Assembly: GCF_004358105.1 (NCBI RefSeq)
Contig: NZ_SMYL01000002.1
Coordinates: 434,001-498,000, forward strand
From: Sapientia aquatica
GTDB taxonomy: Bacteria > Pseudomonadota > Gammaproteobacteria > Burkholderiales > Burkholderiaceae_D
DNA: 64,000 bases
Direction: 5' to 3'
Shown: one piece after another, positions 7,425 to 49,345 of the stretch
Layout of the letters: every line of letters begins with the position of its first letter
How positions within the stretch are numbered: the stretch's first letter is position 1
Notes under the pieces: generated by a model
What the model was told of the DNA's origin: nothing
The model's database searches: none
Seen by the model: only the letters and a program-made list of their open reading frames with translations
Position numbers and translations under genes: made by a program

Positions 7425-9062
7425 ATGAACAATTCCGCACTGATTAAGTCGTTTGCGCTAGCCCCATTCAATTTAAATGAACAGCGTTTGCAATGGGTGC
7501 AAAGCACGTTTGATACGCTCAATAATGACGAAAAAATCGGCCAAACTTTGCTGCCGCTGGTTTTGGATTTAGATCAAGATGACTTGGACGCAGCATTAAA
7601 AATTCCGGTCGGTGGTGTATTTCGAATCCACAACGGACCGCTCGATTCATTGCAACGCTCAGCCCAGTATTTGCAGTCGCACAGTAAATTGCCGTTGTTG
7701 ATGGCAGGCGATTTGGAGTACGTGGAAAACGGTGCCATCGGACATGGCACGATGTTGACTAATCAGTTGACGATCGCAGCGACTGGAAGTACTCAAGCCG
7801 CTGCCGATGCGGCTCGTATTGCAGCAATTGAAGGTCGCAATGCGGGATATAACTGGTCGTACAGTCCCATCGTTGATATCAGTATTAATCCACGCAATCC
7901 CATCGTCTGCACACGCTCGTTCGGTAGCTACCCAGAGCAAATCGCTGACCTGGGCGCAGCCTATATTCAAGCGATGCAAGAAAACGGCATGGCCGCTTGC
8001 GCAAAGCATTGGCCGGGTGATGGCATGGACGACAAAGACCAGCACTTATCCTTGAGTGAAAACTCACTCTCGTTCGAGCGCTGGAAACAAACCTACGGCA
8101 TGATTTACCAGCGCATGATTGATGCCGGCGTACAAACAATTATGAGCGCCCACATTAATCTGCCAAGCTACGATGCCAGCGGCGCGCCTGCGAGTTTATC
8201 GGCGCGATTAAATCTTGATTTGCTGCGCGATCAACTTGGGTTCGCTGGGTTAATCGTCTCTGACGCATCCATGATGGCGGGCATGACCTCGCAAGCTGAT
8301 CGTGCTCAATTGGTGGCCGATTGTATTGAAAACGGATGCGACATTTTATTGTTCCCCGAAGACATCGAAGGCGATTTTAATCATTTAAAAAATGCCTTAA
8401 ACAGCGGGCGCTTAAGTCAACAGCGTTTAGATGAATCGGTGTTGCGTATTCTTGCCTTGAAGGCGTCGTTAGGTTTAGCTGAAGCACGCTTCCAACCCGT
8501 ACCGTTTGATGCGCAAGCGCATGCAAAAACTGCGCGGGATATTGCACAAAGCTGCGTTACTTTGTTGCGTGATAACGCACAACTTCTGCCCATTTCTCCC
8601 GCTAAACATCAGCGCGTTTTGTTAATCGAACCGCAAAAGCGCGAGTCGATTTTAGGCACTAAAGAAAAACTTCAATTTGAAGAACTACTGCAAGCGCAAG
8701 GTTTTTCAGTCACCACATTAACTGCCGGTTTAGCGATTAATTCGGATCTCTTTGATTTGGTCGTTATCGTTACCGCCGATGAAGCGGCGTTCTGTAAAGG
8801 GTTTATCGGGATTAATTGGCAAAACTTGCAGCCCGGTTTATTCCACGTAATGCAGCGCTTCTGGCATCTCATCCCGACAGTGTTTGTGTCGCTCGGCAAT
8901 CCTTATCAAGTCCACGAAATCGAGCAATGTCAGACGGTTATTTTTGGCTACTGCCCAAGTTTGCCAATTCAAGAAGCGGTGGTGCAAGCGATGGTCGGTA
9001 AAACACCATTCTTGGGCCAAAACCCCGTGCGCCTCGACATTAAACCCAGAATTGATTTCTGA
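7425..9062 (+). CDS. Glycoside hydrolase family 3 protein, NagZ-type subgroup
   Basis: This is a predicted beta-glycosidase of 545 residues with no signal peptide, so it should act in the cytoplasm on imported glycosides. The GH3 barrel is recognised by KHWPGDGMDDKDQH at 194-207 and by the nucleophile Asp280 in IVSDASMM. The Asp205-x-His207 pair matches the Asp-His dyad of NagZ-like enzymes, which supports beta-N-acetylhexosaminidase (or phosphorylase) chemistry rather than a plain beta-glucosidase. The usual PGH is PGD here. A second domain (about 360-545) follows the barrel, so it is longer than NagZ itself (about 340). A good ribosome site, AAAGGA, precedes the ATG. It lies between the symporter and porin genes. 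Confidence 0.82.
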   Translation: MNNSALIKSFALAPFNLNEQRLQWVQSTFDTLNNDEKIGQTLLPLVLDLDQDDLDAALKIPVGGVFRIHNGPLDSLQRSAQYLQSHSKLPLLMAGDLEYVENGAIGHGTMLTNQLTIAATGSTQAAADAARIAAIEGRNAGYNWSYSPIVDISINPRNPIVCTRSFGSYPEQIADLGAAYIQAMQENGMAACAKHWPGDGMDDKDQHLSLSENSLSFERWKQTYGMIYQRMIDAGVQTIMSAHINLPSYDASGAPASLSARLNLDLLRDQLGFAGLIVSDASMMAGMTSQADRAQLVADCIENGCDILLFPEDIEGDFNHLKNALNSGRLSQQRLDESVLRILALKASLGLAEARFQPVPFDAQAHAKTARDIAQSCVTLLRDNAQLLPISPAKHQRVLLIEPQKRESILGTKEKLQFEELLQAQGFSVTTLTAGLAINSDLFDLVVIVTADEAAFCKGFIGINWQNLQPGLFHVMQRFWHLIPTVFVSLGNPYQVHEIEQCQTVIFGYCPSLPIQEAVVQAMVGKTPFLGQNPVRLDIKPRIDF

Positions 9063-29147: not shown

Positions 29148-29463
29148 AACTTGCCTATCTGAAAAAATCGAAATGTGGGCGTGTTTGCGCGATCGGAAAT
29201 GGGCAGGACTAACTATTAAACCGCGACGCAAATCACAAAGCACTGTATTTTAAGGTAATTTCGAGCTTCCTACAAATCAACCTTATATAAAATAGGTATA
29301 AGCAAATTCGTATTTTGACCCGCGAAATTGGCCGCTTGGGCAAAATTATTCGATTGCTGTTAGGCTAATTTCCTTGGTCAAGCTCGCTTGCCGTGCTTTT
29401 CATTGTTAAATATTTATCGTGTCGGCGGGCGGTTGCCCCGCCAATTTTTTACCGAAAGTTATT
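29148..29463. other. Divergent promoter region, fdxA and hydroxyacid dehydrogenase
   Basis: No gene is supported. The region separates divergently transcribed fdxA and the dehydrogenase. AT-rich TATAAAATAGGTATAAG near 29283-29299 offers -10-like sequences. I see no clear operator. Confidence 0.4.
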
Positions 29464-46246: not shown

Positions 46247-46942
46247 ATGCGACAAATCGTTTTAGATACCGAAACCACAGGACTGAATCCGCGCAATGGC
46301 GATCGGGTAATTGAAATCGGTTGCGTGGAATTAATCGATCGCAAATTGACCGGCAATAATTTTCACGAATACATTAATCCCGAGCGTGATTCCGATCCGC
46401 GCGCCTTGGAAGTTCACGGATTAACGACGGAATTTTTGTCCGACAAACCTAAGTTTGCCGAGGTGGCGGGGCGCTTGAGTGAGTATTTGCAAGGCGCAGA
46501 ATTGATCATTCATAACGCCTCATTTGATATGGGTTTTTTGGATGCAGAATACGAAAAATTAAATCTGCCGACCTTAACCAGCCAAGTCAGCAATGTGATT
46601 GACACCTTGGCGACGGCCAAAGAAATTCATCCGGGTAAACGTAATTCGCTCGACGCCTTATGTGACCGCTACGGTATCTCCAATTCACACCGCGTTTTGC
46701 ACGGCGCGTTACTCGATTCGGAACTATTGGCTGACGTGTATTTAGCCATGTCGCGCGGTCAGAACAGTTTTTTGATTGAGGAAGAAGAAAGTTCAAACTC
46801 CTCCGCAGCTAGCACCAATATCGACCAGCCGATTGCGTCAGTAATCGTATTGAGCGCCACAGAGCAAGAACTTGATGCTCATGGGCAATTGTTGTCCGGG
46901 TTGGATAAAGCTGTTCGCGGCACTTGCATCTGGAACAGCTAG
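46247..46942 (+). CDS. dnaQ: DNA polymerase III epsilon subunit (3'-5' exonuclease)
   Basis: This is the proofreading exonuclease of the replicative polymerase, 231 residues long. Exonuclease motif I is VLDTETTGLNP (Asp7, Glu9), motif II is IHNASFDMGFLDAEY, and motif III is HGALLDSELLADVYL with the DEDDh His. The C-terminal tail (about 180-231) would bind the polymerase alpha subunit. It sits in a replication-rich neighbourhood with dnaX. A long non-coding region of about 545 nt follows, leading into flhD. Confidence 0.95.
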   Translation: MRQIVLDTETTGLNPRNGDRVIEIGCVELIDRKLTGNNFHEYINPERDSDPRALEVHGLTTEFLSDKPKFAEVAGRLSEYLQGAELIIHNASFDMGFLDAEYEKLNLPTLTSQVSNVIDTLATAKEIHPGKRNSLDALCDRYGISNSHRVLHGALLDSELLADVYLAMSRGQNSFLIEEEESSNSSAASTNIDQPIASVIVLSATEQELDAHGQLLSGLDKAVRGTCIWNS

Positions 46943-47020
46943 CCCCACATCCTTTTGGTTCGCTCAAATTTCTCTGCGGTAATTGTAATGTGTAAGTAAA
47001 TGTTTCATTTGCGTGACAAT

Positions 47021-47047
47021 TAAAGTCGCGCATTTTGATGCCGTTAA
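47021..47047 (+). promoter_or_regulatory. Sigma-28 (FliA)-like promoter P1 upstream of flhD
   Basis: TAAAGTCG - 11 nt - GCCGTTAA matches the FliA consensus TAAAGTTT-N11-GCCGATAA with 6 of 8 and 7 of 8 positions and the exact spacing. It lies about 440 nt upstream of the flhD start. Confidence 0.6.
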
Positions 47048-47152
47048 TAAACTATCGGCAGGAAATCAGCGCTGATATTAGTTGCTGAAATTGAACTTAG
47101 CGCGGACTTCGGGCTAGGGACAAAGAAATTTAGGATTATTTTTAAATTTCGC

Positions 47153-47179
47153 TAAAGTCAGCGGTTTGAATGCCGATAA
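47153..47179 (+). promoter_or_regulatory. Sigma-28 (FliA)-like promoter P2 upstream of flhD
   Basis: TAAAGTCA - 11 nt - GCCGATAA has a perfect -10 and 6 of 8 in the -35 of the FliA consensus. The predicted start is near 47187, about 300 nt before flhD. A weak hairpin AAAAAGC/GCTTTTT (47197-47223) and a T-run follow, so a very short transcript is also possible. Confidence 0.72.
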
Positions 47180-47339
47180 CAACAGGAGATCAGGGGAAAA
47201 AGCACATATTTATTTGGCTTTTTACCGATTTTTTGTAGGTTTATTTTGTCAGTCTCAGACAAATAAATAGTTAAAATTTTGTTTTTATTGCTGCCTTGCG
47301 TTAATTTCTTAATGCATTTCAGGAACCGTTTGCCGGATG

Positions 47340-47394
47340 TAGGATAATCTCCTATGTGCGGCTATGCGTCGTCTCCTACGCCAAATACCTCCTA
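47340..47394 (+). promoter_or_regulatory. flhD leader with three anti-Shine-Dalgarno repeats
   Basis: TCTCCTA at 47348 and 47372, and CCTCCTA at 47388, can each pair with the flhD ribosome site TGGGAGA (47475-47481), the first two over 7 bases with one G-U pair. TAGGA at 47340 can instead pair with the first TCCTA to form a competing small hairpin. This suggests control of flhD translation by leader folding (inference). Confidence 0.45.
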
Positions 47395-47487
47395 GAGCCT
47401 ATTCTCAGTATTTTTACAAAGTCTCACAATGTTTCTCACTGGCTACAAATTCGTTGTGGCGAGGACAAACTTTCTGGGAGAACTAAC

Positions 47488-47805
47488 ATGACACCGAACG
47501 ACATGATGGCGGAAATTCGTGATTCCAATCTAAGTTATTTGATGTTGGCGCAACAAATGATCCGTTCCGACAAAGTTACTGCAATTTTCCGTCTCGGCAT
47601 TGGAAAAGAAATTGCTGACTTAATCGAAGGCTTAAACAATGCTCAAATTTTAAAACTGGCTGGTTCCAACATGATGTTGGCGCGCTTCCGTTTTGATGAC
47701 AGCTCCATCCTTTGCATGCTCACTAACTACAACAAAGACCGCGCTTTAGCTCAATCGCACGCAGCGATTTTGATGGCTGGCCAAGCGGTTGAAGAAATTC
47801 ATTAA
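47488..47805 (+). CDS. flhD: Flagellar master regulator subunit FlhD
   Basis: FlhD and FlhC form the FlhD4C2 activator that turns on early flagellar genes. The ATG at 47488 (MTPNDMMAEIRDSNL) is chosen because it follows GGGAG and gives the usual 105 residues; the frame is open 44 codons further upstream without family similarity. Conserved parts are DSNLSYLMLAQQMIRSDK, AIFRLGIGKEIADLI and ARFRFDDSSI, and one Cys (CMLTN) may form the intersubunit disulfide seen in E. coli. It is followed after 63 nt by flhC. Confidence 0.95.
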   Translation: MTPNDMMAEIRDSNLSYLMLAQQMIRSDKVTAIFRLGIGKEIADLIEGLNNAQILKLAGSNMMLARFRFDDSSILCMLTNYNKDRALAQSHAAILMAGQAVEEIH

Positions 47806-47868: not shown

Positions 47869-48426
47869 ATGGGTAAGAAGAGTGTTATTACAGAAGCGCA
47901 TGAAATCCAATTAGCAATTGAGTTAGTCAACCTTGGTGCGCGGTTGCAATTATTAGAATCAGAAACTTCCTTATCGAGGGAGCGTTTGCTCAAACTCTAC
48001 AAAGAGTTAAAAGGGGTATCCCCACCAAAAGGCATGTTGCCGTTTTCAACCGACTGGTTTTTAACCTGGCAGCCCAATATCCATGCCTCTTTGTTCATGA
48101 ACATCCATAAATACCTCGTCGATCACGCAGGTGTTAAGGGCATCGAAGCCACAGTCAAAGCCTATAAATTGTATTTGGAACAGGTGCCCAATAATCCGAA
48201 CCAAGAGAGCGTGTTGTCGCTCACCCGCGCGTGGACTTTGGTGCGTTTTTTTGAGAGCAAAATGTTGTCGTTGGCCTGTTGCAGCAAATGTGGCGGTCAT
48301 TTTGTGTCGTACAAATACGATCTGCATAAGAACTATGCTTGCGGTCTGTGCCACATGCCATCGCGTGCTGGGAAGCTCAAGAAAGCCAAAGAATCGGATA
48401 AATCCGATTATGAATTAGTCGCTTGA
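47869..48426 (+). CDS. flhC: Flagellar master regulator subunit FlhC
   Basis: This is the DNA-contacting partner of FlhD, 185 residues long. The zinc site is seen as Cys138, Cys141, Cys158 and Cys161 (LACCSKCGGHF and YACGLCHMP). LARAW-like SLTRAWTLVRF precedes it. The N-terminus (SVITEAHEIQLAIELVNLGARLQ) and FSTDWFLTWQPNIHASLF match beta-proteobacterial FlhC. Together with FlhD it should activate the downstream mot/che genes or other class II operons. The TAACGGAG site precedes the ATG. Confidence 0.95.
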   Translation: MGKKSVITEAHEIQLAIELVNLGARLQLLESETSLSRERLLKLYKELKGVSPPKGMLPFSTDWFLTWQPNIHASLFMNIHKYLVDHAGVKGIEATVKAYKLYLEQVPNNPNQESVLSLTRAWTLVRFFESKMLSLACCSKCGGHFVSYKYDLHKNYACGLCHMPSRAGKLKKAKESDKSDYELVA

Positions 48427-48544: not shown

Positions 48545-49345
48545 TTGTCTGACACACCAAATCACTGGTCGCGTAAATTAAACGATGCCCCACCGGCAGT
48601 GATTGCTTTGCTGATTCAACTTCTTGCTGTGGCGGTGGTTGCGACGGCGCTCACGATTTTGTGGCGTGCACACAATGTACGCTTGAGTTTGCCGACGACA
48701 TTGGTCGTGCAAGCGGCGTTGGTGTTGGCGCTCACGCGCTGGTGCAATCTGGCATGGTGGTGGTTGCTTATTCAAGCGGTATTCCCTTTGGCGATTGTGG
48801 CGACACTGATGTTGCCGATTCCGTCGCTAGCCTATTTCGGCATTTTTGCCTTCCTATTTTTCTTTTACTGGTCAACTTTTCGGACCCAAGTTCCCTATTT
48901 TCCTTCCACCAAAAAGGTGTGGAAAACGGTTGAGCGTTATTTGCCCGCCGAGCGCTCGATCTCGTTCATCGATATCGGTAGTGGATTGGGCGGATTGTCG
49001 CTTTACTTAGGCCAGCGCCGTCCTGAGAGTCAGTTTATTGGCGTCGAGATTGCCCCGTTACCTTGGGTGTTGAGTCACTTGCGCACCGTATTCACTTCGA
49101 CCCAGGTGCGTTTTTTACGACGCAATTATCACAGCTTAGATTTTGCTGAATTTGATGTGGTGTTTGCGTACTTATCGCCCGCCGCGATGCCCGATTTATG
49201 GGAAAAAGCGTCGCGCGAAATGCGACCTGGCTCCATGTTAATTAGCTATGAATTTCCGATTGTCGGTAGCGAGCCTGATCTAATCGTCTGTCCTGACGAT
49301 GTAGCCAACCACGGTCCCCAGTTATATTTCTGGTATCTGAAATAA
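48545..49345 (+). CDS. Membrane-anchored SAM-dependent methyltransferase
   Basis: This 266-residue protein joins a membrane part of about three or four hydrophobic segments (20-110) to a class I methyltransferase domain. The SAM site is SISFIDIGSGLGGLSLYLG, followed by FIGVEIAPLP and FDVVFAYLSPAAMPDLWE, and it ends SMLISYEFPI-YFWYLK. It probably starts at the TTG at 48545, which has AGGTG just upstream; no ATG gives a complete domain. The substrate is unknown. It sits between flhC and motA on the same strand, so a role in motility is suggested by position only. Confidence 0.75.
   Translation: MSDTPNHWSRKLNDAPPAVIALLIQLLAVAVVATALTILWRAHNVRLSLPTTLVVQAALVLALTRWCNLAWWWLLIQAVFPLAIVATLMLPIPSLAYFGIFAFLFFFYWSTFRTQVPYFPSTKKVWKTVERYLPAERSISFIDIGSGLGGLSLYLGQRRPESQFIGVEIAPLPWVLSHLRTVFTSTQVRFLRRNYHSLDFAEFDVVFAYLSPAAMPDLWEKASREMRPGSMLISYEFPIVGSEPDLIVCPDDVANHGPQLYFWYLK

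Follow-up and report, generated by a model that had tools for sequence, protein, structure and literature searches.

A conserved pair of predicted FliA-type promoters preceding flhDC, the flagellar master operon, in Oxalobacteraceae

Background

In the textbook view of the flagellar cascade, FlhDC occupies the top and the sigma factor FliA (sigma-28) the last regulatory tier. An effect of FliA on the expression of flhD in Salmonella was reportedly described by Kutsukake in 1997. The flhDC operon of Escherichia coli is the sole class-1 unit (PMC4183435), and a sigma-28 promoter located within flhC serves both the small RNA MotR and motA (PMC10578931). In Salmonella, fliAZ, an operon of an earlier class, possesses an additional FliA-dependent promoter, which gives rise to a regulatory loop (PMC4173784). 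The flhDC operon of Salmonella has several transcription starts and receives feedback from the flagellar programme (PMC3946378), with RflM and HilD described as acting on flhDC transcription and FliZ, YdiV, and FliT as acting on FlhDC activity (PMC3946378, PMC5809477). No report of sigma-28 promoters upstream of flhDC was found in the open-access literature searched, including that on Herbaspirillum, Janthinobacterium, and the family Oxalobacteraceae, a body of work that leaves most subscription journals outside.

The flhDC locus of Sapientia aquatica

The window considered here is a stretch of 64,000 nucleotides from Sapientia aquatica. Among named organisms, the closest relative is Solimicrobium silvestre, which shares a genus group with uncultured Oxalobacteraceae. 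On its forward strand, a dnaQ-type exonuclease gene (46247–46942; Pfam RNase_T) is followed by 545 nt of non-coding DNA, flhD (47488–47805; Pfam FlhD, 8.7e-44), flhC (47869–48426; Pfam FlhC, 3.8e-88), a methyltransferase-like open reading frame (ORF) with weak Pfam matches (48545–49345), motA, and motB. An ORF occupies the same position between flhC and motA in most relatives examined.

The motif TAAAGTC(G/A)-N11-GCCG(T/A)TAA, which a sequence-only reading had placed twice, 132 bp apart, ahead of flhD, is indeed present in two copies on the forward strand of the non-coding gap, and these are the only copies in the 4.43-Mb genome. The distal copy (P1; 47021–47047, forward strand) consists of a −35 element TAAAGTCG (47021–47028), a spacer of 11 nt, and a −10 element GCCGTTAA (47040–47047), with a predicted transcription start at ~47054. 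The proximal copy (P2; 47153–47179, forward strand) has the same spacing between TAAAGTCA (47153–47160) and GCCGATAA (47172–47179), with a predicted start at ~47186. The looser motif TAAAG-N14-GCCGNTAA occurs exactly ten times in the genome, including the two copies before flhD. The motif alone does not make a sufficient case, because loose matches are common: with at most one mismatch, the genome contains 83 matches, compared with 100 for the reversed control.

P1 overlaps a terminator-like hairpin 3′ of the exonuclease gene (47010–47032, forward strand; dG −11.4), whose loop and 3′ arm contain the −35 element and whose T run falls into the spacer. The same kind of overlap is present at six other loci, and a distal −35 element inside the hairpin of the upstream gene is encountered in the genus of the window and in several Undibacterium. 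P2 is preceded by an A+T-rich tract that may function like an UP element (47120–47151, forward strand), and A+T-rich positions precede both sites across the family.

Similarity to class-3 promoters

The resemblance to FliA-dependent promoters was assessed with a weight matrix trained solely on 27 sites that precede flagellin genes in the family, many of which carry CCC ahead of TAAA and are spaced like P1 and P2. With the full matrix, which includes the spacer positions, P2 ranks fifth in the window and P1 falls outside the top twelve, because the training set has T-rich spacers, unlike the spacer found in this genus. When scoring was restricted to the boxes, a choice adopted after the full-matrix result was known, P2 (19.9) and P1 (15.3) rank first and second among all positions on the two strands of the window. 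The next-best sites, at 29454 on the forward strand (14.7) and at 8829 on the reverse strand (14.1; antisense within an ORF), score close to P1, which is therefore not outstanding without its conservation; the small lead of P1 over these two sites argues against a FliA input at this site.

Elsewhere in the same genome, the matrix identifies a site 190 bp upstream of fliC (score 25.1), which belongs to the training set, and two sites outside it, namely 68 bp upstream of fliD (23.3) and in the flgA–flgN interval, oriented like flgM (20.1). The genes called fliD, flgA, flgM, and flgN are presumed to be such from their position and the start of their sequence. The fliA gene itself is encoded in the genome (G000:C11:403206–403871, above the cut-off) and was found in each of the five genomes representing the genus.

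P1 and P2 share the boxes and the spacing of the sigma-28 class-3 promoters of fliC, fliD, and flgM, with a TAAA(G)-type −35 element, a (G)CCGATAA-type −10 element, and 11 nt between them, but differ from these promoters in being paired and in lying upstream of a class-1 master operon. The proposal that both are FliA-type promoters is now strongly supported by the flagellin-trained matrix, by conservation centered on the boxes (see below), and by the matching architecture of fliC, fliD, and flgM; both sites presumably depend on FliA.

The closest parallels in other bacteria are partial. The MotR promoter of E. coli is likewise a sigma-28 promoter in the flhDC region but lies within flhC (PMC10578931), whereas P1 and P2 precede flhD, and no such site was found between flhC and motA at the loci tested. 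The fliAZ operon of Salmonella resembles flhDC of S. aquatica in that an operon of an earlier class has an additional FliA-type promoter; however, the loop in Salmonella acts on fliA and fliZ (PMC4173784), whereas here it would act on flhDC. Multiple starts, predicted here, and feedback from the flagellar programme, proposed here, are further similarities to flhDC of Salmonella, where the feedback described operates via RflM and HilD, with no sigma-28 start mentioned in that description (PMC3946378).

Conservation in Oxalobacteraceae and other families

Conservation was examined upstream of flhD at 80 loci of Oxalobacteraceae, a set made up of the window and 79 of the 80 top FlhD matches, with a score above 8 as the threshold for a site. 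On the strand of flhD, 99% of the loci have at least one site and 94% have at least two, compared with 7% and 0% on the opposite strand and 5% and 0% after dinucleotide shuffling, although these counts are not independent because the genomes are related and were picked by FlhD similarity. It is the comparison with the reverse strand and the shuffled sequences that excludes chance and bears out the claim that such a pair is unlikely to arise fortuitously. The sites recur upstream of flhD in close relatives; the sequence-only reading, against which a lack of such conservation would have spoken, is not refuted by this check.

The conservation is concentrated in the boxes. Mean information amounts to 1.6–1.9 bits at CCCTAAAGTT and to 1.5–1.6 bits at the −10 element but to only 0.3–0.7 bits in the spacer and flanks, where the DNA has diverged. 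The −35 element reads TAAAGTC in the genus of the window and TAAAGTT in most relatives. The distal site is conserved in relatives, and P2 can be aligned in each of the four genus members and throughout most of the family. Among 36 representatives across the GTDB family, which partly overlap with the 80 loci, 86% have one site and 64% have two. The sites are absent or weak in five genera, probably including Herbaspirillum, which weighs against a FliA input to flhDC.

Members of five further families within the order likewise have strong sites upstream of flhD, with full-matrix scores of 18–33. Their recurrence suggests either an older origin or repeated gain. Outside Oxalobacteraceae, most upstream regions lack such sites, and the excess on the forward strand is modest (31% vs. 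14% on the reverse strand); some of the sites are located 500–690 bp from flhD and may serve other genes.

Possible roles of the promoter pair

The sequence-only reading had offered either a positive loop on flhDC or a small RNA as the consequence of the two promoters. The interpretation preferred here, with a probability of roughly 0.55, is that P1 and P2 are genuine FliA promoters whose transcripts read through into flhDC, such that late success in flagellar assembly reinforces or sustains the master regulator. FlhDC would switch on fliA, and FlgM, its anti-sigma factor, would be exported; RNA polymerase carrying FliA would then initiate at ~47054 and ~47186, and the transcripts would cross a leader of ~300–430 nt with two hairpins before entering flhDC. 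Read-through is favored because the promoters are on the strand of flhDC, no gene intervenes, and the window yielded no terminator-like site in the P2–flhD interval; a positive sign of the feedback is presumed. A folding signal in the leader, described next, also speaks for this interpretation.

The leader contains three elements that stand out. The first is a hairpin (H1; TGCGTTAA-TTTC-TTAATGCA; 47297–47316, forward strand), whose position retains a low folding energy over 34 loci (mean z −1.96) despite differing sequence; since inverted repeats may also be DNA elements, H1 does no more than suggest a transcribed region. The second is a palindrome, TGTAGGATAATCTCCTAT (TGTAGGA-N5-TCCTAT; 47338–47355, forward strand), which is conserved in place across alignments (mean z of folding −2.8) and resembles either a regulator site with two halves, RcsB-like in appearance, or an RNA hairpin. 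A role as a general regulator site was rejected, as the palindrome has a single exact copy in the genome and shows no excess over the control. In Duganella and Janthinobacterium, TGTTTGTCAGACAAACACC stands where the window has the palindrome. The third element is a block, CACAATGTTTCTCACTGGCTAC / CACAATGTNTCTCACTGGC (47425–47446, forward strand), conserved in alignments across genera and located ~40–65 nt before flhD. A FNR/ANR-like box, TTGATTCTGATCAA, is present at three Janthinobacterium loci, ~30–45 nt 3′ of the proximal −10 element.

A comparison of the leader with Rfam yielded no match near the gathering score. In the region of H1 and the palindrome, RNAalifold returned either the palindrome alone, with almost no covariation, or nothing, so that H1 was not confirmed; MAFFT failed to align H1. 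The predicted leader RNA has a folding signal at two places, without a covarying consensus structure.

That folding is conserved at H1 and at the palindrome, together with the FliA-type character of the promoters, would also fit a different product. Known flagellar small RNAs include some that depend on sigma-28, one of them from the flhC promoter (PMC10578931), and P1 and P2 might yield a small RNA dependent on FliA, or a leader RNA that is then processed, resembling MotR, FliX, or UhpU of E. coli, with little flhDC mRNA. This explanation, the strongest of the alternatives but nevertheless doubtful, is plausible in many Undibacterium, where the palindrome takes the form of a terminator-like hairpin near −118, between P2 and flhD. 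Its T-rich tail suggests that it could terminate a short transcript or serve as an attenuator, which counts against the read-through preferred above. However, no terminator-like hairpin is present at that place in the Duganella and Janthinobacterium loci tested or after P2 in the window, and the presumptive RNA body varies between genera, with a mean of 0.35 bits over the 40 nt after P2.

A length of several hundred nucleotides and its structure could also make the leader an impediment, in which case P1 and P2 would lower the output of flhDC, by poor translation or by interference with a sigma-70 promoter proximal to flhD, and the feedback would be negative. A start by FliA need not raise the level of FlhDC protein, because the class-3 transcript of fliA in Salmonella is inefficiently translated (PMC4173784). 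Such negative feedback is nevertheless unlikely, and a simple scan found no sigma-70-like promoter site.

The genes downstream of flhC point to one more possible function. At the loci tested, no FliA-type site was found within 2.8 kb past the start of flhD, including the region upstream of motA, and P1 and P2 therefore possibly supply motAB as well; in E. coli, by contrast, the site in flhC serves MotR and motA (PMC10578931). That the pair serves, at class-3 level, a long flhDC-motAB-che operon in which flhDC is carried passively is quite improbable, given that ~1.35 kb and one ORF separate flhC from motA, that some relatives have terminator-like hairpins after flhC, and that a separate conserved block precedes motA in the genus of the window.

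Least probable are chance matches or sites of a factor other than FliA, because conservation on one strand throughout the family and recovery by a flagellin-trained matrix outweigh the poor discrimination by the motif itself, whose near matches are no more common than those of the reversed control.

Implications for the flagellar hierarchy

As a sequence feature, the predicted pair of FliA-type promoters is real, conserved, and in an unexpected place, and a consequence for the expression of flhDC is plausible. Whether, in Oxalobacteraceae and perhaps in other families of the order, FliA transcribes flhDC from a conserved tandem pair of promoters via a structured leader is an evenly balanced question; with the hierarchy closed in this manner, completion of the hook-basal body would lock in or tune the motile state. 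The conserved pair suggests that, in members of this family, the last stage of the flagellar programme acts back on the first. If true, a conserved direct input of FliA to flhDC would convert the cascade into a loop and would bear on bistable motility and on the continued production of flagella.
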